Shown here: one piece after another, positions 40,191-58,170 of the stretch | Position numbering within the stretch: the first letter of the stretch is position 1 | Layout: each line of letters opens with the position of its first letter | From: Thioalkalivibrio nitratireducens DSM 14787 | GTDB lineage: Bacteria > Pseudomonadota > Gammaproteobacteria > Ectothiorhodospirales > Ectothiorhodospiraceae | Assembly (NCBI RefSeq): GCF_000321415.2 | Contig: NC_019902.2 | Location: forward strand, 2,480,001 to 2,544,000 | DNA: 64,000 nt | Reading direction: 5' to 3' | Program-made: the position numbers and the translations under genes | The notes under the pieces: generated by a model | Database searches by the model: none | Told to the model about the DNA's origin: nothing | Seen by the model: only the letters and a program-made list of their open reading frames with translations

Positions 40191-43100
40191 TTTCTGAGCT
40201 GCCTGCGCGGCAGCGAACCAGGGATAGGTGATGGTTCTATTACGGTTATGTTTCTGAGCTGCCTGCGCGGCAGCGAACGGATTTCGCTGTTTCCGAACAG
40301 GTCACTCATATTTCTGAGCTGCCTGCGCGGCAGCGAACGAACAAAGACCGGCTCCGCGAGCTGGTGCAAATTTCTGAGCTGCCTGCGCGGCAGCGAACGT
40401 TATGGCCCGACCAAGCGCTTCGGCGACGATTTTCTGAGCTGCCTGCGCGGCAGCGAACGGGGGATATTCATTCGTAGGCCTTTACAATGCTTTCTGAGCT
40501 GCCTGCGCGGCAGCGAACCTCAATCAGAAGGGCTTCTCCACCCGCTACATTTTCTGAGCTGCCTGCGCGGCAGCGAACGTGATCCCGAGATTGGATAGCT
40601 CGCGGCGCATTTTCTGAGCTGCCTGCGCGGCAGCGAACCTGGGTCACGACCAGCTTGGCCCCGCCGTAGATTTCTGAGCTGCCTGCGCGGCAGCGAACGG
40701 TGTCGATATTGGCAATGTCTTGTGCTGGTGTTTTCTGAGCTGCCTGCGCGGCAGCGAACAACAGCATTCGTTTCGTGATCGGGGGGATGACTTTCTGAGC
40801 TGCCTGCGCGGCAGCGAACTTGACGGGAATAGATACGGTCCATGCGCCACATTTCTGAGCTGCCTGCGCGGCAGCGAACGGACACGCGGGCGCGGCGGTC
40901 CCCAAACAGGATTTCTGAGCTGCCTGCGCGGCAGCGAACGGCCAGGACAACGGCGCGAAGAAGCTGCAAGATTTCTGAGCTGCCTGCGCGGCAGCGAACG
41001 GTGGGGTCGGTTAGCGTCTGCACGACGTTCATTTCTGAGCTGCCTGCGCGGCAGCGAACGATTTCCATCTCGTTGATCGTCTTGTAGTTGCTTTCTGAGC
41101 TGCCTGCGCGGCAGCGAACAAAGTCGCCGGCCTGGATCCCGCCGAGATCAATTTCTGAGCTGCCTGCGCGGCAGCGAACCCGGCCCTACCTCGATGCCTC
41201 CCGCGACGTCTTTTCTGAGCTGCCTGCGCGGCAGCGAACGGCCTGCTGATGGAGCTCCGTTCCGACACGCATTTCTGAGCTGCCTGCGCGGCAGCGAACG
41301 CGGCACTACACCCACAGCCACCTCAGCCGCTTTTCTGAGCTGCCTGCGCGGCAGCGAACGATCGTGCGGCTACGTCGGAACCTGACCTGGTTTTCTGAGC
41401 TGCCTGCGCGGCAGCGAACGACGGCGGCGACATGACCGCGGCGAGCCTCGATTTCTGAGCTGCCTGCGCGGCAGCGAACTTCGAGATCACGCGGGAAATG
41501 CTCCTGCAGATTTTCTGAGCTGCCTGCGCGGCAGCGAACTCAGCGTCTGCTGGCGGTACGTCGTGCTCGAGTTTCTGAGCTGCCTGCGCGGCAGCGAACC
41601 GTTACCCCGCCCGGGAGATGCAGAGGAACCTTTTCTGAGCTGCCTGCGCGGCAGCGAACGACGAGGCGGACCCCGCGGCGTTCGTCTCGCTTTTCTGAGC
41701 TGCCTGCGCGGCAGCGAACGCGAGCACCTGCTCGATCAATTTGACCCCCGTTTTCTGAGCTGCCTGCGCGGCAGCGAACGTGAAGCTGCGGATCGATCTC
41801 GATGCGGACGTTTTCTGAGCTGCCTGCGCGGCAGCGAACGGTCGGCTCCAGAAGCGCCTTCGAACGCCACATTTCTGAGCTGCCTGCGCGGCAGCGAACC
41901 CACCACGCCGCGCTTGGACACGCAGCCCAGCGTTTCTGAGCTGCCTGCGCGGCAGCGAACCTGATCGCGGTCACCAAGGGCACTCCCTACGTTTTCTGAG
42001 CTGCCTGCGCGGCAGCGAACCCGGGGCCGGCACGCCGCGGCCGTGTTTCAGGTTTCTGAGCTGCCTGCGCGGCAGCGAACGAGGAGCAGCAGGCCGCCAA
42101 GGATCACCTACATTTCTGAGCTGCCTGCGCGGCAGCGAACAGCGGCGACGCACTGGCTCTGACGTTTGATCATTTCTGAGCTGCCTGCGCGGCAGCGAAC
42201 GCCTGGATCTGGCTCGGCGTCATGCGCTCGAGTTTCTGAGCTGCCTGCGCGGCAGCGAACGCGTACATCGACAGCCACCGCGGCATCCCATATTTCTGAG
42301 CTGCCTGCGCGGCAGCGAACCCTGGATTGCCGTACCTGGAGTCGGCGTTACCTTTCTGAGCTGCCTGCGCGGCAGCGAACGTAGGCACACGTCCGTTGCC
42401 ACTTCTCCAGCATTTCTGAGCTGCCTGCGCGGCAGCGAACCGAGCCCCCGCCATCCCCTGATCTGACCGAGATTTCTGAGCTGCCTGCGCGGCAGCGAAC
42501 GCAATCTCCGCATACGCTTCGGCGTCGGTGTTTTTCTGAGCTGCCTGCGCGGCAGCGAACCGCAGACCGACGCGGCAGCCTTCCAGTCGGGCTTTCTGAG
42601 CTGCCTGCGCGGCAGCGAACGCGTGATCGCGCCGCCGGTCAGGAGGCCATAATTTCTGAGCTGCCTGCGCGGCAGCGAACAAGAAATGACCTCCACTGAC
42701 AACATCGTCTTTTTTCTGAGCTGCCTGCGCGGCAGCGAACACGGCCACCGGTGTAGACGACGACGGCGAAGATTTCTGAGCTGCCTGCGCGGCAGCGAAC
42801 AGACGACACGCTCGGCGGCTTGGCGCATGGGATTTTCTGAGCTGCCTGCGCGGCAGCGAACACTGTGGGCGGTTTCGCCTTCATGATTGACAATTTCTGA
42901 GCTGCCTGCGCGGCAGCGAACAAAAATCTGATGCCGGAGACACCTACGCAACAGTTTCTGAGCTGCCTGCGCGGCAGCGAACCTGACCGCTCAATGGCCG
43001 CCGCGATGAACAAATTTCTGAGCTGCCTGCGCGGCAGCGAACGCCGAACGCTTGAGTTAAAGCGCCGACTGTAATTTCTGAGCTGCCTGCGCGGCAGCGA

Positions 43101-43886
43101 ACGCATATCAAGTGCAGTTACGCCAGCGGCGACGTTTTCTGAGCTGCCTGCGCGGCAGCGAACTTCCAGACCCGGAGGGAGAATTCGAATACCAATTTCT
43201 GAGCTGCCTGCGCGGCAGCGAACTTTGGGTTCTCCGGCGTGGTGGACCCGGACGATTTCTGAGCTGCCTGCGCGGCAGCGAACAATTGTGGGGCGCGCTG
43301 ATGGTGCCGGGAGCGTTTCTGAGCTGCCTGCGCGGCAGCGAACCAGAAGGGCAAGGACAAGCTGTTCAAGGCGGTTTTCTGAGCTGCCTGCGCGGCAGCG
43401 AACAGCGGTGGGCTGGATAGCCTGGTCGAGTTCGTTTTCTGAGCTGCCTGCGCGGCAGCGAACGTGCAGCCGCCCCACCGACACATGGAAGAAGTTTTCT
43501 GAGCTGCCTGCGCGGCAGCGAACCAGGGCCACGAGGCGCTGCATGCTCTGGCTCATTTCTGAGCTGCCTGCGCGGCAGCGAACCGACGCGCCCGGGAGCT
43601 GCAGGCGGAGCTCGAGTTTCTGAGCTGCCTGCGCGGCAGCGAACGGAAAAAATCGAGCGCGACGAGCGGCCCAATCATTTCTGAGCTGCCTGCGCGGCAG
43701 CGAACGCGAGACAGCGAGAACGGCGCGGAGAACTGCCGTTTCTGAGCTGCCTGCGCGGCAGCGAACTGCAAGCCTTGGCCGAGGACATCGCCGCAAACTT
43801 TCTGAGCTGCCTGCGCGGCAGCGAACATCATCGAGGAAGCCGCCAAGGTCGGCAGCCATTTCTGAGCTGCCTGCGCGGCAGCGAAC
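40191..43886 (-). CRISPR. Type I-F CRISPR array, 62 repeats and 61 spacers
   Basis: The 28-bp repeat starts GTTCGCTGCC and ends GGCAGCTCAGAAA on the minus strand, the direction of transcription. Its hairpin is CTGCC-GCGCA-GGCAG and the predicted Cas6f product keeps the 8-nt handle CTCAGAAA. I counted 62 copies from 40191 to 43859; all look identical, even the trailer-end one. Spacers are 32 nt, with a minority of 33 nt, and no duplicate spacer was noticed. The repeat is of the I-F type and matches the neighbouring csy genes. The leader lies at the cas6f side. Uniform repeats and large size suggest an active, growing array. Confidence 0.98.
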
Positions 43887-44018: not shown

Positions 44019-44579
44019 TCAAAACCACGGAATGGTGGCTTCCCGGCTGATCCCGTAGCTGTTGAACGCGCCCACCACGCAGCGAGTCTGTACTGGTTCG
44101 TGTTCGATGAAAAGGCTGAAACGCTGGCCGGAGCTGGTGCTGTACACGGTGAGGAACGGGGTCTTCACCTTGCGAGCAACGGTGTCCGGGATACGCTCAC
44201 GCGCCTCTTCGTGGGTTTCTCCGTGTCGGCGCATGCGCCGTCGTCGAAGCCGTTCGACGTTGGTCTTGTATTGTCGGCGGCGGACGCCTCTGTGTAAGAC
44301 TTCGGCCGGGACCGCGCGAAGAGGGGCGATTTCCAGTTGGCCCCGCATACCGCCCAGCCATTCCTCCTGCATCAGTGTTTCGATGCGCTCTTGGGTTCCA
44401 TGGACTCGCAACCGGTTCCCAAGAGGCGGGGCTTTTTCAAAATCGGGGAGGCTGATGCCGATATCGTCAGCTTCCAGGACTACCAGCCGACGATGAAGCT
44501 TGCTGACCAGCGCTCCGAGCAAGGTGGTTTCTCTGAACTCGGGGTCTGGAAGCACGGTGAAGTCCAGATAGTGGTCCAT
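44019..44579 (-). CDS. cas6f: CRISPR pre-crRNA endonuclease Cas6f (Csy4)
   Basis: 186 residues, the usual Csy4 length (187). It cuts pre-crRNA at the base of the repeat hairpin and stays bound to the 3' stem. His29 (SKLHRRLV) aligns with the catalytic His29 of Pseudomonas Csy4. The arginine-rich helix that grips the RNA is present (NVERLRRRRMRRHGETHEEA), and the C-terminal part has the Gly-rich/aromatic strand STSSGQRFSLFIEH. It begins 3 bp after cas7f and is the last cas gene before the array. Confidence 0.95.
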   Translation of the reverse strand: MDHYLDFTVLPDPEFRETTLLGALVSKLHRRLVVLEADDIGISLPDFEKAPPLGNRLRVHGTQERIETLMQEEWLGGMRGQLEIAPLRAVPAEVLHRGVRRRQYKTNVERLRRRRMRRHGETHEEARERIPDTVARKVKTPFLTVYSTSSGQRFSLFIEHEPVQTRCVVGAFNSYGISREATIPWF

Positions 44580-44582
44580 GGT

Positions 44583-45623
44583 TCAGTCCGCCTTTTCGCC
44601 AAACACACCGCCGCGAACGATAGTTGCGAGCACGAAATGCTGCTGCTCTTCCGCGGGTTCCTGGTCCTTGAGAATCCAGTTGTCGAGCAGCGAGTAGAAG
44701 TCTGCCTTTTCCTTGGGCTGGCGGAATGCGGTGCCTTGGGTGGTCACCGAACCATAGGGCTCAACGGCGATTGGCCCCGTTCCGCGTTCGGTGGCGTCCG
44801 GGTACCAGGTGTCGATGGTGCGGATGGCGTTGCCCAGTTTCTGGGAATGGATCCCTGCGATCTGATCGACCGTGTAGAGGGTCTTGCTCTTGTTGCCCTG
44901 ACCACGATCGAGGATCAGCTCCTGCGAGGGGAACACCTCCTGTCCGGCACCCATCCGCGCGAACGCCGTGACTTCCAGCAACACGAAGCTTTCGCCCGCA
45001 AGCCCCTGGCGGATGACCTCCGCGAGTTCCTGAAGATCCGTTTCCGCATCCCCTTGGGCCGTGAATTCTCGCACCGGAATCTCCAGCGCGTTGAAGGCCC
45101 AGGTTTGCGTCGTTGCACCATTCTCCTTGCGTTCGACGCGAACCTCGACGGCCTCGGCGCCCATGCGATTGCGCCACAGGAATCGGGCATTGGCGATGTT
45201 CTGCGCATATCGGCGCGCCAACGCGGAGAAACCATGTCTATCCACGTAGCCGCTGACCACGCTTTCGAGCTTCGCCTGGTACGGCGCGCTGTTACAGGCC
45301 GACGGCTTTCCTGCACCACCCAGCACCTTCAGCGTGAACCGCGCCATCAAGGTGTCCCGGTCGTTGGGCAGCATTGCGACATCGACCGTCTGCAGGTTGG
45401 GGTTCTGGATCGCCGCGTCCAGCTTGGCCGGATCCTGCTTGTTGGCCTTCAGGCGGTTGGAGATGGTGCCGCGCACGGATTTTTCCCGTACCGGAATGGC
45501 GATCCATTGGTCGGGATTGCCCCTGTCGGACCACTGTCCGGAATAGAGCAATGCGTCGGAGGGGTCGAGCTTGCGTTCAAAGGCAAGGACGGAAGCAGTA
45601 TGAAGTTCAGTGTTCTTGGCCAT
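44583..45623 (-). CDS. cas7f: Csy complex backbone Cas7f (Csy3)
   Basis: 346 residues, close to the 342 of Pseudomonas Csy3. Six copies form the crRNA-binding backbone of the I-F Cascade, kinking the guide every sixth base. Family blocks seen include LHTASVLAFERKLDPSDALL, VREKSVRGTISNRLK, NARFLWRNRMGAEAVEV and KTLYTVDQIAGIHSQKLGNA. Lies between cas5f (17 bp) and cas6f (3 bp). Confidence 0.96.
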   Translation of the reverse strand: MAKNTELHTASVLAFERKLDPSDALLYSGQWSDRGNPDQWIAIPVREKSVRGTISNRLKANKQDPAKLDAAIQNPNLQTVDVAMLPNDRDTLMARFTLKVLGGAGKPSACNSAPYQAKLESVVSGYVDRHGFSALARRYAQNIANARFLWRNRMGAEAVEVRVERKENGATTQTWAFNALEIPVREFTAQGDAETDLQELAEVIRQGLAGESFVLLEVTAFARMGAGQEVFPSQELILDRGQGNKSKTLYTVDQIAGIHSQKLGNAIRTIDTWYPDATERGTGPIAVEPYGSVTTQGTAFRQPKEKADFYSLLDNWILKDQEPAEEQQHFVLATIVRGGVFGEKAD

Positions 45624-45640: not shown

Positions 45641-46636
45641 TCAGGCGTAAACGTTGGGTTCGTAGTCATTGCGAAGACGATACCGGCCATTATCCGGCTC
45701 GCTCTCCGGGTACCACAGAAGTTGTTTCGGGCTTGTCAGCTGATGCGGGCCAATCCACTGGCCGATCGAATAAAGGCTTTCGACAAACCGGAACGGGGTT
45801 TCGGCATCCCGGACAGCAGCGACGGTGCCCGGATCATGCAGCGGCCCAAGTGCGCCATAACCCACGGGAATCGGCACGATCCATCCGGATGAGCCGCGTG
45901 GCCGACGTGGTTCCCAATGAACCGTGGGTGCCTGTTCGGTATCAGCCGACTCTTCGCCATGGCATTCCCAAGTTAGCCGGGACAGATCCAGCCAGGCGTC
46001 CAACAGCGTGGATTCCGGTCTCTCTTCCCGCAACGTTTTCCAGTGGCTTTGCAGCAGGTCGTCGCGAGCAACCAGCGCGAATCCGGGAAGCCATTGCCGA
46101 AGCAGTTTTCGGTATTCCTTCGGGCGCGCTTCCGCGTCCTCGGTCACTGGGATGATTCGCGTGCTGCGCCGGCGCGCGTTGCGGGTAGGCTGTACCGTGC
46201 CGCCCGCAATGCGCAGGGTGTGGACGAGTTCCTCAATCTGCCGCGCCACTTGCTCGTTTTCGGAACTCTTGCAGCTATCTCCGCGCACGCTGAATACAAG
46301 GGTGATTTCCAGGTGAGTCCGACCCTCCTCGACGATGGCCGCTGGTCGATTCGACTGGACATCACGCTTGCTCTGAAATATTGGATTGCGAGTCAGCCGG
46401 AACGTACGCGGAAATGTCGCTGTGGAGATTTGCGGCTCGTGACGGTGGCAAATGACTCCAACGGAATCGAAGAATAGTTCCAAGCTACGTTCATCCAGTT
46501 TCCGCTCCAGCGTGTGCATCAGCCCCACGAAGGCCGTCATCGCCGGAAAGCCCCAGGTCAGCGGACTGGAGATCGCATTAGCGTTTTGCACCCGCAATCG
46601 CGGGATTTCGAGTAGGTAATTCGGCTCTTCAAGCAT
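45641..46636 (-). CDS. cas5f: Csy complex subunit Cas5f (Csy2)
   Basis: 331 residues from the ATG at 46636 (MLEEPNYLLEIPRLRVQNAN), which overlaps the cas8f stop and begins as Csy2 proteins do. An upstream in-frame ATG at 46690 would add 18 residues inside cas8f and is less likely. With Cas8f it caps the 5' handle of the crRNA. Typical blocks are SPLTWGFPAMTAFVGLMHTL and SGWIVPIPVGYGALG. Confidence 0.94.
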   Translation of the reverse strand: MLEEPNYLLEIPRLRVQNANAISSPLTWGFPAMTAFVGLMHTLERKLDERSLELFFDSVGVICHRHEPQISTATFPRTFRLTRNPIFQSKRDVQSNRPAAIVEEGRTHLEITLVFSVRGDSCKSSENEQVARQIEELVHTLRIAGGTVQPTRNARRRSTRIIPVTEDAEARPKEYRKLLRQWLPGFALVARDDLLQSHWKTLREERPESTLLDAWLDLSRLTWECHGEESADTEQAPTVHWEPRRPRGSSGWIVPIPVGYGALGPLHDPGTVAAVRDAETPFRFVESLYSIGQWIGPHQLTSPKQLLWYPESEPDNGRYRLRNDYEPNVYA

Positions 46637-47894
46637 GCAGGAGCACCTCGCGCAGAGAGTCCTTCCAGAAACGAAATGCCGCATCGTCAAATGGAAGCCG
46701 ATGCTGGAGCCTTGCGTTCAGCCAATTGCCGAATCGATGGCTCACTTTATCCACCCATTCCTCGTTCTCGCATTCGGTTGCGAAGTCCGGGTCGATATCG
46801 GCTCGGCGGGGATCGAGCCACAAGGCCTCAAACCTGTTCAGCGAGCAATCCGGAGAGGCGCTCCATCCCGGCTCCAGGGTGTGCAGCTCGGCCGCATACA
46901 GGAGCAGCTCGTCCACCAGTTTATTGAGATGTTTGTCGCGTCGCTGTCGAGTCGTGACGTTTGGCGGCGGGTTTGTCGCAAGAAATCGCTTGAGCGCGGT
47001 GACCACCTGCCGAACGCCTGGTCGGCGCCCGAAGGAAGACCGGGAAAACACGGAGTCAACGAATAGCGGTGGCCTGAGGTCACGGTTGGCCCAGTTGGGC
47101 GGCAGCGACGCGAGCAGGTAATTGGTGCCGTGCCGTTCGAGGTTGAGCTGCGAAACGTTCTGAGGCTTGGTTCCACCCAGCTTCTGGACAGCTAGATTCG
47201 GGTACTCGTGAAAACCCGTTTCACTGTATTCCCCTTCACGCCGCGCCTTGCGTGCTGCCTTTGCTTCCTCCGAAAACCGGTGGTCATTAATGGTTTGGTA
47301 CACCACATGGGCGAGTGAAGCCGCGTACAGCGGTGCGAGCAGGTGAAAGTCCGTGTCTACAGTCGGGTCCCCACCCGCAAGCCAGTACACCTGTTTTGCC
47401 CGGGTGTGACTGGCCTCGATGCCGCGTGGCTCCACGATACGGGCGAAGGCCCGCAACCATTCCCGGCCCTGATCGAGATCATCGCTGAATGCGGCAGCCA
47501 GTTCGTCGTCGTCCGCCAGTACGCGACTCAGCAGCGTTCGGCCGCCATGCTCCACCTTCAAGAACTTGTAGACATCCAGCGCGGCAGCGTTACCGACCAC
47601 GTCCTCGTTGAAGCCGGAACTCAGGACATGGCTGCCGACTTCCGGATGCTTCGGCAGCTCCGTCGGCGGCCGAAAAAGGTTGGTCCCTCTCGCATCCGGG
47701 TGAATCGCCTTTAGCGAATGCGTGACGACCTGAAGTTGCGCGACGCGGCGAGCAGCGTCCGCCAGCCAGTTCTCGCGTTGGTACTGCTGTTGCAACGCTA
47801 GATACTTGGGGTCGTCGGGTGCCAGCTTTTCTGCTTTGACTTCAAATCGGGCCGTCAAAAAGGCCTCAACGGAATTGCGGAGTAGGTATCCCAT
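46629..47894 (-). CDS. cas8f: Csy complex large subunit Cas8f (Csy1)
   Basis: 421 residues, near the usual 434. It recognises the CC PAM and recruits Cas2-3. Recognisable blocks are HPEVGSHVLSSGFNEDVVGN, LLAPLYAASLAHVVYQ and PQNVSQLNLERHGTNYLLAS. It is the first gene of the effector operon. A 272-bp gap with its own promoter separates it from cas2-3, so its expression can be set independently of the adaptation genes; that gap also contains the mini-CRISPR described below. Confidence 0.95.
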   Translation of the reverse strand: MGYLLRNSVEAFLTARFEVKAEKLAPDDPKYLALQQQYQRENWLADAARRVAQLQVVTHSLKAIHPDARGTNLFRPPTELPKHPEVGSHVLSSGFNEDVVGNAAALDVYKFLKVEHGGRTLLSRVLADDDELAAAFSDDLDQGREWLRAFARIVEPRGIEASHTRAKQVYWLAGGDPTVDTDFHLLAPLYAASLAHVVYQTINDHRFSEEAKAARKARREGEYSETGFHEYPNLAVQKLGGTKPQNVSQLNLERHGTNYLLASLPPNWANRDLRPPLFVDSVFSRSSFGRRPGVRQVVTALKRFLATNPPPNVTTRQRRDKHLNKLVDELLLYAAELHTLEPGWSASPDCSLNRFEALWLDPRRADIDPDFATECENEEWVDKVSHRFGNWLNARLQHRLPFDDAAFRFWKDSLREVLLHA

Positions 47895-47947
47895 TAGAGC
47901 GTCTCCGTGCTCGTGGTAAGCGGAGGCAGCTGCCCCGGCGAGCTTGG

Positions 47948-47976
47948 ACCGTAACGACCTTCGCTCTTCATGTCAA
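47948..47976 (-). promoter_or_regulatory. Sigma70 promoter of the cas8f-cas5f-cas7f-cas6f operon
   Basis: On the minus strand a perfect -35 TTGACA (47971-47976) and TACGGT (47948-47953) are spaced by 17 bp; the cas8f ATG is about 50 bp downstream. The -35 directly abuts the mini-CRISPR protospacer. Confidence 0.7.
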
Positions 47977-47977
47977 T

Positions 47978-47999
47978 CCCTTGTACTCTTTTTTTAAAC
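47978..47999 (+). promoter_or_regulatory. Predicted Cascade target (PAM CC plus protospacer) upstream of the cas8f -35 box
   Basis: CC at 47978-47979 followed by CTTGTACTCTTTTTTT matches the pseudo-spacer at 48120-48135 (CTTGTCCTCTTCTTTT) except at positions 6 and 12. Complementarity ends after 16 nt. Position 1 bp from the -35 element means a bound Csy complex would block the promoter. Inference from sequence match, not shown experimentally. Confidence 0.75.
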
Positions 48000-48065
48000 T
48001 CCCCACGAGTTCCCCCTTGTCTTTGCACTTGCGAACCCTCTCCATCCGCTTCCTTTGCGCCTGCC

Positions 48066-48167
48066 TGATACACTTCAGGCTGCCCCGCGAGGTTTTCTGG
48101 CGCATAGCCAGCTCAGAAACTTGTCCTCTTCTTTTTGGACTTACCTGCCGAACAGGCAGTCGCAATT
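48066..48167 (+). ncRNA. Mini-CRISPR encoding a cas-regulating crRNA-like guide (CreR-like)
   Basis: Read on the plus strand, opposite to the cas genes. An extended -10 (TGATACACT, 48066-48074) predicts a start near 48081. The first repeat-like element (48092-48119) matches 22 of 28 array-repeat bases: hairpin CTGGC-GCATA-GCCAG and an intact 3' handle CTCAGAAA (48112-48119). The stem differs from the array (CTGCC/GGCAG) by a compensated C-G to G-C swap. A 20-nt pseudo-spacer follows (48120-48139). The second element (48140-48167) keeps only the hairpin core CTGCC-GAACA-GGCAG and ends in the cas2-3 stop codon. Cas6f processing would yield a short guide, 12 nt less than normal, or two Cas7f steps. 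Target: the cas8f promoter. Confidence 0.75.
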
Positions 48168-51100
48168 CACGCGTCATTTCGGGACAGGAAGAACCCCAAC
48201 GCGTCGTGGTAGCTCCAGCCGTTATCGCGGTCCGGCACCGACACGGTGCCGAAGCGGCGGGCGCAGTGCTCCAGCGGCATGTCCAATTGCTCGGCGAGGT
48301 GGGCCAGCGCGTCCATGTACGGGCGGGTAATCCATGCGCCTGTACGAGGCCCGATTACGGCCTCGAGGTTATGGCGCTGCATGAGGCTTTTCTCGACGTC
48401 GATGTAGACCGATTGGCCCCGGCTACCGGGTTCCCGGTGGATTTTCTGCAGCACCCAGTCTTCTTCCGCTTCGTCCGGCATCAGGACGAGATCGACTTCG
48501 TTCTGGCCGGTTTGATCGCGAAATCGCTGCACTTTCTGCAAGGTGCCGGTAAGGGTCGCGCGCGGAAGCTGGTACCACGAAGCCGCGTTCAGGCGCGGAG
48601 TGGCTGGCGATCTCATCGCCCGGCGTTCTCGGCGGGAAAGGGGCTGCGCGACGACGTCGACTTTGCGGGGCAGCAGGGTATCGCGCAGGCGGGCATGTTC
48701 CAGGTCCAACAACCGGTCCGCCGGCTCGAGGGGCTGCGGTTCGATGATCCGGGGCCGCGAATCGATAGTGGCGTATTCCTCCGGGCGGAGAAGTTCGCCA
48801 AGATCATGGCTGCGGAGCATCCATTCCTCACTCTCGAATCCGGGGCGGCAGTACGCGGGCTGGCCACGCCGTTCGAGCGCTTTCAGGTTGAAGTTCGGCA
48901 GGACGAGGTTGGGACCCTTGTCGGTCGGCTCGCGGTGCCGCCGGACGCGACCGGCAAGCTGGATGATCGAGCGCATCGACGAAGGCTCGACCACTGCCCA
49001 ATCGTAGTCGTGGTCGCGCCCGACCTCGGTCACGGGGGAGCCGATCACGATGAACAACTGGTCCGGCTCCGGCGCGGCATCGATACGATGGCGGACCACG
49101 GGCAGTTCGAATACCGCCTCGGGCTGCTTCCGGTTGAGGATCCGGTCTAGGTTCCGTTCGATCTCCGAGCGCATCAGCAGCGGGAAACGGGAGTGATACA
49201 CGCAAAGGTGAAAGCGATGGCCCTCCGGGGCGCCGTCCCGAAACAGGGTTTGCGCGACGGCAATCAGCGGCTCGATATTGGCCATGCGGATCAGGCCGAA
49301 ACTGACCCGTTTCCCGCTTGCGGGGTCCACGCTGCAATGCCGTCGGTGCAGTTCCAGTGCATGGCCGCGTAGCTGCCGGGCGTATTCCTGCCGGATTTCT
49401 TCCTGCGAGCCAGTGCGGGAGATGGGTAGCGAAGCCAGTTCGGCGCTGCGCCGAGGCTGCTCCGCCGCCAGGCGCTTCTGGCGGCCTTGCACAAACCGCC
49501 CGTGTGCTGCCGCAAGCTCGGGGCCGTCCGCGCAGTCTTGCGCCAGCTTTCCGTATTCATCGAACCACGCGCAGACGATGTTGACCGGCTGGCCCGGCTC
49601 GCCACGGTTGCGCTGGAATACGGCGCGGCCTTCCCGGTAGGCCAGAAACAAGCCTTCCACCAGCGCCGGCGCCAGCGTTGCCGAGGACAACAGAACCCGT
49701 GAACCGAGCATGCCCGCCCAGTGCACCAGGCGTGTGAGTGCCGGCAGGTCCTCCAGGGCAAAGTCGTCGATCTCGTCCAGCACCAGATCACTGCTCATCA
49801 GACGCAGCATGGGCGCGATCTGCCGCCCGCCGCGGACGCTTTCCGTGGCCGGGGTCAGATGATCCACCGTGCAGGCGAGGATCGGGGCGGCGATCAGCGA
49901 TCGGATCGCCGGGTCGTGCCGCAGGTGCTTCAGAACCGGATGGTTGCCGAAGTCACCTTCGTAGAAGACGTGTCCGTCCTCGTCCATGAGGTCCTGTGCT
50001 GACGCCGAGCCGTGGCGCTCCGCCTGTTCCTCGAAGTGCTCGAAGAGGATGCGGTTGGCGGTACCGCCGACCCGGATGGCGAGTTCGTCGTCCCCGAGGT
50101 GCATCAACTCCCGGAAAGCCTGCCCGGTCTGCAAGGTCAGCGTTCGCAGACCCAGCGCGATGGAAAAGCGGGCGCCCTGTTCCGGATTGGCCAGGGCATA
50201 CAGGATGCGACCGTTGGCGAGGGTCTTCCCTCTTCCGGTCGAAGCCATGTTCACCCCGAAAAAACCCTGGGCGGTCGTGCGTTCGCGCAGCGACGCGGCG
50301 AGATCAAAAGCGCTGTTCTGCCACTGGAAGCGCGGGTCCGCCGTCCGCTTGCGGAATCCCTTGTGACGGGCGAGACGCGGGAGATGCCGCTCGAGCCCCG
50401 GCAACGAACGGGTAATGGCACGCGCGATGGCCTCGACGCCGATCAGATGTTCATCGAGGGGTTGGTTCAGTTGTCGGGTCGCTCGGTTCGTATTGGCATA
50501 CAAACCGTATCCGGGTTCGCCCTTCACTCGATCCTTGGGATCGGTGAGGCTGGAATAGTGGTGGTCGGCCAGCATCAGGCTCATGCGCGCCAGATGCATC
50601 ACGTATGGATTGTCGAGCCAGGCAGCCGGCATGCTGGGCAGTCGCCCCAGAAGTCGCTCGGCCAGGTTGCGGGCGCGACCCCGCCACTTGGACGTGGTTA
50701 CCGGCAGAGGGTAATCGAACCGCCAATACGGCTGGAGCACTGTTGGCGCGGTCTCGCTGGGGCATTCGTTCCAATTCGGCGTAATGATCTCGGGCAACCC
50801 CGTGAGGCGTTCGGCCCGGAAGCCGGTCACTCGGCCTGTGGGACGACCGTCATCGTCGGGCAGCAATGGCAGCCGATGATGAGTCAGGACCAGCCAACCC
50901 ACTGCGGCCGCGAGTGGCGGTAGTGTCCGGAATGGTGATTCGAGCCCTTCGACCAGGCCATCCTTCAGGAGTGCAGCGGTCCATGCCTGATCGTCATCGG
51001 CGGGAAGATCCTTCAGCCGCTCAAGCCAGCCACGATCATCGTCATTGCCAACAAAGGCCTGGAACAGGCGCAGACTGATCCATTCGTGGCGGTATTGGTT

Positions 51101-51532
51101 CCGGCTGAGGTTGCCGTGCGCGGTCAAACGCTGCTGGAACGCAACGCATGCCTTGCCGAGATCGTGCAGCAGAGCGGCCAGGCTGCTCAGCAGCCGGATA
51201 TCCTCGCCGGTGTGCCAGTCGTTTTCGTCGCCGCGACGCAGCACATCGCGTGCGGTGGTATTCGTGGGTACCGCACCACGCAAGTTGAATCGGCTGGCAT
51301 TGCCGACAATCCAGAGCAACTCGCTGCGATCACGACCGCGTATCCAGTGACAGGCCACCGCCGTGTTGCGCCGCGCGGACTGGCGCAGCAGCTTTCGGAG
51401 CATGTCCAGACCGGCCTGGGTAATCGAGGTCTGCCAGGTGCGTTCTCCGCGCCGCTCGGCGAACTGGTCCAGTATGCGGCGCGTCTCCTTGAGTGCGTTC
51501 TTGTTGCACTGAGAAACGAGGAGAACGTTCAC
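48167..51532 (-). CDS. cas3f: CRISPR-associated helicase/nuclease Cas2-3 fusion (type I-F Cas3)
   Basis: 1121 residues. A Cas2 domain occupies about 1-95 (MNVLLVSQCNKNALKETRRI), the I-F hallmark. The HD nuclease has HDLGK at 123-127. The SF2 helicase shows motif I STGRGKT, motif II as VLDEIDDF, and motif VI QLAGRVRRHR, with a C-terminal domain after. It degrades target DNA after Csy recruitment and also joins Cas1 in spacer acquisition. Its start overlaps the cas1 stop by 4 bp. Its stop lies inside the second repeat-like element of the mini-CRISPR on the other strand. Confidence 0.96.
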   Translation of the reverse strand: MNVLLVSQCNKNALKETRRILDQFAERRGERTWQTSITQAGLDMLRKLLRQSARRNTAVACHWIRGRDRSELLWIVGNASRFNLRGAVPTNTTARDVLRRGDENDWHTGEDIRLLSSLAALLHDLGKACVAFQQRLTAHGNLSRNQYRHEWISLRLFQAFVGNDDDRGWLERLKDLPADDDQAWTAALLKDGLVEGLESPFRTLPPLAAAVGWLVLTHHRLPLLPDDDGRPTGRVTGFRAERLTGLPEIITPNWNECPSETAPTVLQPYWRFDYPLPVTTSKWRGRARNLAERLLGRLPSMPAAWLDNPYVMHLARMSLMLADHHYSSLTDPKDRVKGEPGYGLYANTNRATRQLNQPLDEHLIGVEAIARAITRSLPGLERHLPRLARHKGFRKRTADPRFQWQNSAFDLAASLRERTTAQGFFGVNMASTGRGKTLANGRILYALANPEQGARFSIALGLRTLTLQTGQAFRELMHLGDDELAIRVGGTANRILFEHFEEQAERHGSASAQDLMDEDGHVFYEGDFGNHPVLKHLRHDPAIRSLIAAPILACTVDHLTPATESVRGGRQIAPMLRLMSSDLVLDEIDDFALEDLPALTRLVHWAGMLGSRVLLSSATLAPALVEGLFLAYREGRAVFQRNRGEPGQPVNIVCAWFDEYGKLAQDCADGPELAAAHGRFVQGRQKRLAAEQPRRSAELASLPISRTGSQEEIRQEYARQLRGHALELHRRHCSVDPASGKRVSFGLIRMANIEPLIAVAQTLFRDGAPEGHRFHLCVYHSRFPLLMRSEIERNLDRILNRKQPEAVFELPVVRHRIDAAPEPDQLFIVIGSPVTEVGRDHDYDWAVVEPSSMRSIIQLAGRVRRHREPTDKGPNLVLPNFNLKALERRGQPAYCRPGFESEEWMLRSHDLGELLRPEEYATIDSRPRIIEPQPLEPADRLLDLEHARLRDTLLPRKVDVVAQPLSRRERRAMRSPATPRLNAASWYQLPRATLTGTLQKVQRFRDQTGQNEVDLVLMPDEAEEDWVLQKIHREPGSRGQSVYIDVEKSLMQRHNLEAVIGPRTGAWITRPYMDALAHLAEQLDMPLEHCARRFGTVSVPDRDNGWSYHDALGFFLSRNDA

Positions 51533-52506
51533 TGCCCACCGCTCGTCACGACCCGTGCGGTGGCCTTCACGGTGTCGATCATGAAGTCGAGCGCCTCGGT
51601 GCGTGTAAGTTGTTCAATGCAGGCTTGTCGGAATTCCTGCTCCTCATCGCCCCGCACCGCCGACACGAAGGCCTGGGGCAGAATCACCGCATCCTTGACG
51701 AGATCAGCGACGTCGAAAACCAGACCCCCGCGCCGGGTCTTGCCATGCAGTACCGATAACCCGTGGGGGATGCCCAGCACCCAGGTTGCCGTCGCCCCGA
51801 GGCCGTAGGCCAGATAGTTGCCGTGATCAAGAAACCGATTGGCCGGGTCGGTTCCACCGCCATGTTTCGCGCGGGAAAAATCACCATAGCCGGTTGCCTG
51901 ACAAGCGAGCCTGAACAGCTTCTTGGTCAGACGCGCCTCCTCGGTCAGGAGATCGGTGTTATCCCTCGCTGCTTCAACCGCGCGGCGCGAGGCATCGAGC
52001 GTACTGGCGAGCTGGTCGGCAGGCACCACGAAGCCCTCATCCCTGAATTCCCGATAGTTGTTCCAGTGTTGCGCGATTCGCTGTAGACGGGCCTGCTGAA
52101 AGGTCTTCGCCGCTTGCAGCCGGAGGGTATCGTCGAACCAGAACCCAACCCAGGATTGCAGATACTCGGTTGGCCGATACTCGCTTTGCGGGGACAGCCA
52201 CGCGACTTCAACGGTAAGCTCGGTCGCGCTGAACAACGGCGTGCCGCCACCGCCGCAGAACCCGAGCATCACGCCCGCCTTGGCGAGTTCGCGCACCGCG
52301 GCTTGCGTAATCGACGTTCCAGTGCCCAATAGCACGGTCGTGGTGTTGGCGATCGGGATGTTCCAGTAGAAGGACTCTTTCCCTTGCTCGGTCACGTATT
52401 CGACGCGACCACCCTTCACCAGTACCCGACAGTGCTCAAGGTAGTAAAGATTCGCTCTTTTCGAGTGAAGGATCGTCTTCAATGACGACGGCTGTATCGG
52501 TTCCAT
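51529..52506 (-). CDS. cas1: CRISPR integrase Cas1 (type I-F)
   Basis: 325 residues, family length. The N-terminus SSLKTILHSKRANLYYLEHC and the catalytic C-terminal sequence (SVLHGKTRRGGLVFDVADLV) with the metal-binding His and Asp are characteristic of I-F Cas1. It inserts new spacers as a complex with Cas2-3. It is the first gene of the cas1-cas2-3 pair; the two overlap (ATGA). Confidence 0.96.
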   Translation of the reverse strand: MEPIQPSSLKTILHSKRANLYYLEHCRVLVKGGRVEYVTEQGKESFYWNIPIANTTTVLLGTGTSITQAAVRELAKAGVMLGFCGGGGTPLFSATELTVEVAWLSPQSEYRPTEYLQSWVGFWFDDTLRLQAAKTFQQARLQRIAQHWNNYREFRDEGFVVPADQLASTLDASRRAVEAARDNTDLLTEEARLTKKLFRLACQATGYGDFSRAKHGGGTDPANRFLDHGNYLAYGLGATATWVLGIPHGLSVLHGKTRRGGLVFDVADLVKDAVILPQAFVSAVRGDEEQEFRQACIEQLTRTEALDFMIDTVKATARVVTSGGQ

Positions 52507-53059: not shown

Positions 53060-53527
53060 TCAACGGCCCACAAGCGCCTCGCAGGCCCGCAGCATCGCTT
53101 GCAGGGGTTCCGGGTCCGCCAGGCGGTGGTCGTTCCCCACTTCGACCAACACCGAGGGCGACAGGCGGCTGCGCCGAACGAGTTCCTCGGAATCGGCGAA
53201 AGGGATCACGTCGTCGTCGCGCGAGTGCAGCACCCGGGTCGCAGCACCCACCGTCGTTGCCGACCCCCAGCGCTTCCATGCGGGGCACAGCAGCACTTGT
53301 GGCACCTCGCCAGAATCCAGGTTCATCGCCACCGCCCCGCCCCGCGACGAGCCCACGATCACGTCGGGGCGTTCCCGGTCGAACACCGCCTGCGCGGTCG
53401 CCACGGCGGCGGTAAAGTCATGGTCGTCCAGCGCAGGGGTCAGCACCTGGTGGCCATGGCGCGCCAGATAACTTGGTTTCACGCCCCCGGGCAGCGACTG
53501 CCAGCCATGGAGGAAAAGGATCTTCAT
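53060..53527 (-). CDS. Alpha/beta-hydrolase (YqiA/UPF0227-like esterase)
   Basis: 155 residues from the ATG at 53527. It starts MKILFLHGWQSLPGG (oxyanion-loop HG motif), has the nucleophile elbow VGSSRGGAVA (G-x-S-x-G), a conserved acid region VLHSRDDDVIPF and the catalytic His in EVGNDHRLAD. Probably a small esterase or thioesterase; substrate unknown. Its start overlaps the stop of a degenerate darP copy. A truncated second copy lies at 57821-57968. Confidence 0.75.
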   Translation of the reverse strand: MKILFLHGWQSLPGGVKPSYLARHGHQVLTPALDDHDFTAAVATAQAVFDRERPDVIVGSSRGGAVAMNLDSGEVPQVLLCPAWKRWGSATTVGAATRVLHSRDDDVIPFADSEELVRRSRLSPSVLVEVGNDHRLADPEPLQAMLRACEALVGR

Positions 53528-53729
53528 CGGCCTCGCTGCTCCTTGTCGGGATCGGGCTCGGCGAGAGCCTGCGCACCGGCTGGCCGGGATCCCGCCAGGA
53601 ACCGGAACAGCGCGCGGCTGGAACGCGGCGGCCTGCCCTCGGCCGCCTCCCTGCGGGCGTTGCGGATCAGTTGACGCAGGTGCTGGGCGTCCGTGGCCGG
53701 ATGGCTTTCCAACCACTCGGTCAGCGCGG
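53380..53729. repeat. Long direct repeat, left copy
   Basis: About 350 bp, nearly identical in order and sequence to 57821-58170, with roughly ten visible base differences. It covers the hydrolase 5' end and the darP 3' end. The two copies bracket 4.1 kb of unrelated sequence. Confidence 0.8.
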
Positions 53730-53817
53730 GGTCGACCGCGCGCATCAGCCGGCCGATGTACTGCAGTTGCCGGCGCACCGCGGCGCGGAGGGTGTCGGGC
53801 AGATCCATCGCGCGCAT
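53524..53817 (-). pseudogene. Degenerate darP (yjgA) copy
   Basis: Relative to the intact darP at 57965-58510 this frame lacks the first 40 or so codons and has two in-frame internal deletions: one removing LDAQHITSRGAL and one of about 35 residues before ALTEWLESHP. The remaining C-terminus (LRQLIRNARREAAEGRPP, SRALFRFLAGSRP) is alike. It cannot encode a normal DarP. Confidence 0.8.
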
Positions 53818-53821
53818 ACCA

Positions 53822-54160
53822 CCGGGGTCAGGTCTCGCCCTGTAGCATGCAGCTTCCCCTAACCGCCCAATGGTCGGTGCAGCGGAGGCCACTTCAGCTC
53901 GCCATCGCGAGCATGCACGAGGAACGCATACCACCGGGGTCAGGTCTCGCCCTGTAGCATGCAGCTTCCCCTAACCGCCCAATGGTCGGTGCAGCGGAGG
54001 CCACTTCAGCTCGCCATCGCGAGCATGCACGAGGAACGTAGCACCCAGAGCCTGATGCTGGAGGCGCTGCTGGCCGGCCCGAACTTCGGATGCGCGGTGA
54101 TTCCGCGCCCTGCCCGCACAAGACCATTCGGTCCCTCTCGGCGCTGACCGCGCCAGGCAA
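53822..54160 (+). repeat. Tandem 112-bp repeats containing decayed gene fragments
   Basis: GGGGTCAGGTCTCGCCCTGTAG starts (split: GGGGTCAGGTCTC, GCCCTGTAGCATG) at 53824 and 53936, 112 bp apart, with near-identical units. Each contains TTCAGCTCGCCATCGCGAGC, similar to the 3' part of the gene at 56006-57769; the second unit continues to about 54150 with more of that gene. A related start lies at 52733 and another at 54199. Confidence 0.7.
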
Positions 54161-54653
54161 CGCAATGGGGTCAAACGCACTGGGGTCACAAACGCACTGG
54201 GGTCAGGTCTCGCTCTGTCGCATACAGGCCACCCCTTGACCGCCAAATTGTCTGTGCAGTTCTGACCGCTTTCTGGCATTGCGCGGCCCCGCCACGGCAG
54301 CCGCGGTGGACGTTCAGGGTCGGGATAAGGCAGCCTTGTCGGCGGCATCGCGATGCTGTTTCGTTGCCTGATGGGCACCTCGTGCCTGCGTCTCAGGGCC
54401 GAAGACGGTGTAGCTGATCGAATCACCCGCCCAGGAAGGGGTGGCGTCCGTGCTTGGTCGACCACTTGCCTGATGCAGTAGTTGAGAACTACGGCCTCGC
54501 TCGCGAGAATGTCAGCAAGCAAGACCACATGAGAGATGTAAGGCGATGCGCTGACTACTGTACGCACTAGACACGGCCTGCTTCTGGCACCATAAAACTT
54601 TTCTGCCTGGAATGCGGCAAGGGAGATCGTCGGCCGTCCACGCGTCGTGCTGC
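54161..54653. other. Region with GGGGTCA repeats, no gene
   Basis: Contains a further GGGGTCAGGTCTC copy at 54199 preceded by short CACTGGGGTCA iterations. The rest has no recognisable gene; frames are short and not protein-like. Confidence 0.4.
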
Positions 54654-54741
54654 GTGGTTCGCGTGGTTCGCGTGGTTCGCGTGGTTCGCGTGGTTCGCGT
54701 GGTTCGCGTGGTTCGCGTGGTTCGCGTGGTTCGCGTGGTTC
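54654..54741 (+). repeat. Minisatellite, 9-bp unit GTGGTTCGC
   Basis: Nine perfect tandem copies and a partial tenth. The period is a multiple of three, so each frame gives a repetitive peptide (for example RGS on the plus strand, NHA on the minus strand), but no credible gene surrounds it. The copy number is likely to vary between strains. Confidence 0.9.
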
Positions 54742-57769: not shown

Positions 57770-57820
57770 GGCCCGCCGGCCCAACGGCGTGAGCCGGCGA
57801 CTCACCGCACCGGGCCCACT

Positions 57821-57968
57821 CGAACACCGCCTGCGCGGTCGCCACGGCGGCGGTAAAGTCATGGTCGTCCAGCGCAGGGGTCAGCACCTGGTGGCCATGG
57901 CGCGCCAGATAACTTGGTTTCACGCCCCCGGGCAGCGACTGCCAGCCATGGAGGAAAAGGATCTTCAT
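57821..57968 (-). pseudogene. Truncated copy of the alpha/beta-hydrolase
   Basis: Identical in its first 48 or so residues to the gene at 53060-53527 (MKILFLHGWQSLPGG to TAQAVF), then homology ends abruptly at 57821; the frame continues into unrelated sequence to 57744. The nucleophile Ser is missing. Confidence 0.85.
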
Positions 57969-58170
57969 CGGCCTCGCTGCTCCTTGTCGGGATCGGGCTC
58001 GGCGAGAGCCTGCGCACCGCCCGGCCGGGATGCCGCCAGGAACCGGAACAGCGCGCGGCTGGCGCGCGGCGGCCTGCCCTCGGCCGCTCCCCGGCGGGCG
58101 TTGCGGATCAGTTGACGCAGGTGCTGGGCGTCCGCGGCCGGATGGCTTTCCAGCCACTCGGTCAGCGCGG
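57821..58170. repeat. Long direct repeat, right copy
   Basis: Partner of 53380-53729. Includes the 5' fragment of the hydrolase and the 3' half of intact darP. Confidence 0.8.

Follow-up and report, generated by a model that had tools for sequence, protein, structure and literature searches.

The window, a 64,000-nucleotide stretch of the Thioalkalivibrio nitratireducens DSM 14787 genome, carries a leftward-read type I-F CRISPR-Cas system in which profile matches identified cas1, cas2-3, csy1 (cas8f), csy2, csy3, and csy4 (Table 1). A csy1 search of the 4.0-Mb genome found a single csy1, and two further arrays (C1 2928215-2928598 and 2931055-2932039) have a repeat identical to that of the window. 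The cas2-3/csy1 gap is 272 nt long and contains, antisense to the cas genes, a mini-CRISPR unit consisting of two degenerate repeats (PsiR1 and PsiR2) with a single guide between them. Elsewhere in the window, we noted 9-bp exact repeats (n = 10) at 54652-54741, an exact tandem duplication of 112 bp at 53813-54038, and a 186-bp repeat of 99% identity at 53374-53559 and 57815-58000.

Table 1. Features of the type I-F locus and its mini-CRISPR unit (positions within the window)
Feature	Position	Strand	Remarks
CRISPR array of the type I-F system	40191..43886	-	62 repeats, spaced mostly 60 nt
csy4 (cas6f)	44019..44579	-	TIGR02563; presumed processor of the guide
csy3 (cas7f)	44583..45623	-	TIGR02566
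csy2	45641..46690	-	TIGR02565; ORF as listed, start provisional
csy1 (cas8f)	46629..47894	-	TIGR02564, E 3.1e-119; heads the presumed target operon
-10 TACGGT, predicted csy1 promoter	47948..47953	-	17 nt from the -35; 3/6
-35 TTGACA, predicted csy1 promoter	47971..47976	-	a single base separates it from the PAM
PAM CC of the self target	47978..47979	+	read from the sequence
Self target	47980..47995	+	equals the guide at 1-5, 7-11, and 13-16
Candidate extended -10 (TGATACACT) of the guide transcript	48066..48074	+	weak; read from the sequence
PsiR1, degenerate type I-F repeat	48092..48119	+	22/28 to the array repeat; exact handle CTCAGAAA
Guide (pseudo-spacer), 20 nt	48120..48139	+	sits between PsiR1 and PsiR2
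PsiR2, second degenerate repeat	48140..48167	+	16/28 to the array repeat; 5-bp stem
cas2-3 (Cas3f)	48167..51532	-	TIGR02562
cas1f	51529..52506	-	TIGR03637

The original prediction described PsiR1 as a relative of the array repeat with an intact handle and a compensated stem, and alignment confirmed this: the CTGCC/GGCAG stem of the array repeat is replaced by CTGGC/GCCAG, with pairing kept. The pseudo-spacer and the second hairpin likewise lie where they had been placed, the last base of PsiR2 overlapping the cas2-3 stop codon. Hairpin energies of -8 kcal/mol for PsiR1 and -8.5 kcal/mol for PsiR2 were predicted. The best other non-array 28-mer in the window agrees with the array repeat at only 19 of 28 bases. 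Across the 4.0-Mb genome, a stem-plus-handle pattern had 87 matches, namely PsiR1 and 86 reverse-strand matches that fall in three array clusters (62, 7, and 17). Rfam CRISPR-DR4 matched PsiR1 independently (30.2 bits, E 0.0008), below its gathering score of 35. The single short spacer of 20 nt and the degeneracy of both repeats led us to reject an ordinary CRISPR array or a remnant of one, whose near-identical repeats and 32-nt spacers are absent from the unit.

The guide and the self target agree at 14/14 non-kink positions and differ at positions 6, 12, and 17, so that the predicted match over positions 1-16, with exceptions at 6 and 12 and a 5' CC PAM, was found exactly where it had been reported. 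When we searched the 4.0-Mb genome for CC followed by such a match with no more than two mismatches, only the self target was recovered; without the PAM, the spacer itself was also found, and a reversed control pattern gave two matches. A 14/14 non-kink match with CC arose in the 272-nt gap in 2 of 20,000 spacer permutations (~1e-4), and an equal match arose in 4 of 5,000 dinucleotide shuffles of the spacer (8e-4) and in none of 3,000 dinucleotide shuffles of the gap. Taken alone, the match is only moderately significant, because spacer and target are both CT-rich. At the level of sequence, it is the comparison across csy1 loci, rather than the match at a single locus, that decides the reading.

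The target had been said to abut the TTGACA -35 of cas8f, and that hexamer does lie a single base from the CC; the accompanying -10 is weak, and a consensus scan of 47850-48250 called neither a promoter nor a terminator. The predicted csy1 promoter scores 9/12. Transcription running on from cas2-3 could also feed csy1, as the gap showed no terminator. Between the PAM-side end of the self target and the csy1 ATG lie 85 nt, about 30 of which are promoter. The predicted promoter of the guide itself is also weak and oddly placed, and an inverted repeat (GCCTGA/TCAGGC, 48063-48080) flanks its candidate -10.

We consider that the unit is most probably a type I-F CreR (cas-regulating RNA) acting on the csy1-csy4 promoter. 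Given a guide that matches sequence at the predicted promoter of the locus's effector genes, the immune complex probably lowers its own expression. The unit is a degenerate mini-CRISPR beside the cas genes of its own system, in the cas2-3/csy1 gap; it has a partial, PAM-flanked match (CC, 14/16) at a predicted cas promoter, albeit one with a weak -10; and no toxin gene lies under the targeted promoter, csy1 being the next gene. It thus has the CreR features that can be tested here, and we have filed it as a CreR in type I-F. Counting against this assignment are the weak -10, the weak guide promoter, the moderate significance of the single-locus match, the possible read-through from cas2-3, the surveyed targets with a poor adjoining promoter or on the other strand, and the lack of a unit in the two csy1 loci closest to that of the window (G011 and G029, both of the same genus).

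For the transcription, processing, repression, and feedback of the guide, we infer the following course. Csy4 would cut a plus-strand transcript after the PsiR1 stem, yielding a handle and 20-nt guide beginning CTCAGAAACTTGTCC. This guide would load a short Csy complex with four Csy3 subunits by the published 6N-4 rule; in one type I-F1 system, complexes are described as assembling on spacers of 14-176 nt, with a length that follows 6N-4 (PMC7296934). The short complex would pair at positions 1-5, 7-11, and 13-16 with the CC-flanked site beside the csy1 -35 and, once bound, would block the csy1-csy4 promoter. The R-loop would be too short to fire Cas2-3, and so the chromosome would stay uncut. 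The original argument that a short R-loop allows binding without cutting agrees with the same study, in which Cas2/3 cleavage does not start at R-loops of 26 bp or less and binding in vivo drops gradually as the spacer is shortened (PMC7296934). The block would lift when array crRNAs occupy the Csy proteins or when an anti-CRISPR disables the complex, leading to more effector. For the known CreRs, relief by crRNA competition or by anti-CRISPRs is reported in reviews. In Acinetobacter baumannii, a CreA guide and the I-F complex repress a promoter, Csy4 is required, and single mismatches at positions 2-5, 7-9, and 13-17 abolished function (PMC10097628); from this CreA-guided repression, we infer autorepression in the window by analogy.

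Using the Csy1 protein or the TIGR02564 model, we collected 115 csy1 loci, including that of the window, from genome searches, sequence stretches, and 6 of 17 plasmid records; two phage csy1 matches were not included. The sample is non-random, as searches were directed at the orders of selected genomes, and near copies remain in it (L070/L072 and L081/L104; the tree gives L012 and L090 one and the same Csy1). Left out were L105, which is cut at a contig end; L043, L044, L056, and L073, which are duplicates or second pieces; and fragmentary csy1 matches (G325, G134, G310, G879, G896, and the second piece of G317). Csy1 scans found none in viral contigs and one locus, without a unit, in genome contigs. 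Within each gap, the search began with hairpins having a 5-bp stem, a 5-nt loop, and a CTNAGAAA-like handle, and a target was then sought. Counts rest on this search, an earlier gap filter having missed the units of the window and of L057.

Hairpin-plus-handle elements were present in the gap at 39 of the 115 csy1 loci. The original prediction had named a kept repeat with a lost promoter match as the case that would speak against it, and the opposite was seen: a CC-flanked target agreeing at 11 or more of the 14 non-kink positions accompanied 35/35 elements with a recognizable PsiR2. Such a match was also found for two of the four elements without a recognizable PsiR2, which brings the strict units with a target to 37 of 115 loci (36 besides the window). 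Relaxed repeat criteria added L064, L081, L095, L104, and L119, for a total of 42/115; a sixth relaxed candidate, L039 (score 11, weak repeat), was not counted. Among 34 unique spacers, position 6 was mismatched in 25 and position 12 in 27, rates near the 75% expected of unread positions, although the match search ignored these two positions and so favors the pattern observed there. Mismatches at the remaining positions numbered 0/170 at 1-5, 13/170 at 7-11, and 28/136 at 13-16.

Fairer controls come from shuffled and swapped spacers. Own-target scores ranged from 11 to 14, compared to maxima of 9 to 12 over 40 shuffles per locus. When spacers were swapped among the first 11 loci, the best score was 11; in the same set, the own score of L027 was tied by 1 of 400 shuffles and those of the others by none. 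Of 35 unique targets examined, 28 lay on the antisense strand and 7 on the other. A promoter of at least 8/12 started within 8 nt of the PAM in 19 of the 28 antisense-strand targets, vs. 14.6% of shuffles, and in the other 9 the adjoining promoter scored below 8/12. The evidence for promoters of the guide transcripts is weak across the units: a -10-like hexamer of at least 5/6 lay within ~22 nt of PsiR1 in 17/35, vs. 26% of shuffles, and in most other units the best such hexamer was nearer PsiR1 than it is in the window.

Covariation of spacer and promoter in related genomes, which had been proposed as a check, was also seen. Different spacers, each with its own matching target, were found in the near neighbors on the Csy1 tree L093/L094 and L057/L058 and in the more distant pair L077/L079, with L057 and L094 at the 11/14 limit. 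Where a spacer was shared, the targets differed at positions 6, 12, and 14 (L070/L072) or at position 12 alone (L081/L104). Anatomy, match, geometry, recurrence, and covariation of the unit are observations of this analysis, and the last two support the self-repression reading as first put forward. That the match arose by chance in CT-rich sequence, beside a stray remnant of an array, is extremely improbable: a few shuffled spacers did match equally well, but the window combines repeat, PAM, promoter contact, and kink pattern, and 36 other loci show such a design when strict criteria are applied. Shuffles, spacer swaps, and recurrence together led us to reject chance.

We examined a CreTA reading because the cas2-3/csy1 gap is the published site of type I-F CreTA, which the original prediction did not take into account. 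The unit would then be a creA antitoxin, and the product of the repressed promoter would be a toxic RNA, either in place of csy1 mRNA or in addition to it. In Acinetobacter type I-F loci, CreTA sits in exactly this gap (PMC10097628), and the two degenerate repeats of the unit are creA-like. Distances measured between csy1, its start set by a scoring rule, and the PAM-side end of the target divide the 42 loci. Twenty-five have long distances of 185-535 nt, with room for a toxin; some of these carry a hairpin RNA and a mini-ORF preceded by a Shine-Dalgarno (SD) sequence, or a small protein ORF picked by eye, ahead of csy1, and the published CreTA of Acinetobacter LoGeW2-3 (L127) is among them. 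In 13 loci (the window, L037, L042, L052, L053, L064, L070, L072, L075, L081, L104, L113, and L125), the distance is only 56-107 nt and csy1 is directly next. L086, L089, and L050 are intermediate (120-166 nt), and L106, whose best target lies 12 nt from csy1, was set apart. The short layout of the window, which it has in common with twelve other loci, leaves no room for creT between target and csy1. The sole ORF there besides csy1 that has an SD-like motif ahead of it has 25 codons and ends TAATG on the csy1 start; as it begins inside the -35, it would be carried only by transcripts from further upstream. For this lack of room between target and csy1, we reject CreTA for the window, where we think it improbable, while it fits the 25 long-distance loci.

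Some gaps have contents of their own. The long-distance units L063 and L095 share an SD sequence followed by ATGATTGGCTATC before csy1, likely a creT family outside the published Acinetobacter set. In L027, L032, L119, L057, L058, L077, L079, L093, and L094, the guided promoter precedes small protein ORFs identified by eye, which are candidate CreP-like payloads; those of L032 and L119 look alike. On Vitreoscilla filiformis plasmid pVF1 (L124, 462-1496), VapC-family toxin and XRE regulator genes are annotated in the cas3-csy1 gap.

A quick tree was built from 112 Csy1 proteins, three of the 115, including the short-class L042, being too short; the five relaxed-criteria units carry the label "none" on it. 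The short class (9 rows) required 7 changes, vs. a shuffled mean of 8.8, with values as low in 11 of 500 shuffles; the long class (23 rows) required 22 changes, vs. a mean of 21.0, with values as low in 431 of 500. These counts indicate that units have been gained or lost often.

The unit might instead be a relic, left by a CreTA or CreR that has lost either the production or the function of its guide. Its repeats are degenerate, its guide and csy1 promoters are weak, the nearest congeners are without a unit, and in L042 a unit stands beside a csy1 broken by stops, yet with a guide-target match of 14/14. However, the window retains the handle, a paired stem, the PAM, and agreement at all 14 read positions; decay would not spare these features while altering 6 and 12, which makes a relic unlikely.

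Spacer lengths of 33 unique units clustered near 14-16, 19-21, 24-27, and 29-32 nt, about one Csy3 footprint apart, and the 20-nt guide of the window equals 6x4-4. A period of 6 gave R 0.58 (Rayleigh p ~2e-5, a statistic that ignores relatedness); periods of 4 and 5 also gave a signal (R 0.46 and 0.41). With slightly less than even confidence, we suggest that the type I-F cas2-3/csy1 gap is an interchangeable slot, in which a single arrangement of guide, PAM, and -35-adjacent target controls a payload of toxic RNA, small protein, or effector operon, with guide lengths that step by one Csy3 footprint (near 14, 20, 26, and 32 nt). On this view, a single module would have CreTA and CreR as its states, with the window as a thermostat.

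CreR is reported for I-B, I-E, and V-A (PMC13131331), and a review states its range broadly as type I and V-A (PMC12737573). CreRs described in these and in PMC12948488 resemble the window in having a mini-CRISPR near the cas genes, a crRNA-like guide with a partial cas-promoter match, and effector self-repression; the window differs in its type I-F system, its internal promoter ahead of csy1-csy4 only, and its 20-nt guide. The type I-F CreTA of Acinetobacter (PMC10097628) shares the cas3-csy1 gap, two degenerate repeats, a divergent orientation, a CC-flanked partial target, and a 20-nt spacer. There, a creT toxic RNA separates the target from csy1, whereas csy1 is directly next in the window, and the target sits downstream of where creT transcription starts, whereas that of the window abuts the -35. 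CrePA, as outlined in PMC12737573, similarly has a crRNA-like guide that holds a promoter off until the effector fails; its payload is a toxin protein, whereas the gap in the window contains none and csy1 follows directly.

Our literature search found no type I-F CreR; the primary CreR paper, reportedly that of Liu et al. in Cell Host Microbe in 2023, was outside this search and may list I-F cases. In type II systems, Cas9, a single protein, represses itself through a natural long-form guide derived from the tracrRNA. As in our reading of the window, an effector represses its own promoter via a special guide; the system type, the tracrRNA origin of the guide, and the single-protein effector are different. 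SpyCas9 autorepression is mentioned in PMC13131331.

The unit may extend CreR to a new subtype, to an internal effector promoter, and to the CreTA slot, or may be just a new member if the primary paper already lists I-F cases. If the CreR reading is true, RNA-guided cas autorepression extends to type I-F, and if the slot reading is true, loss or gain of a payload would turn an addiction module into a thermostat. The features of the unit provide a search rule for such guides that separates them from CreTA (repeat hairpin, handle, CC, match at 1-5/7-11/13-16, and adjacent -35), and the surveyed units are natural data on the guide positions read by the Csy complex. Our findings suggest that the level of the type I-F effector could track crRNA load and anti-CRISPR attack, while the upstream adaptation genes keep their own control.
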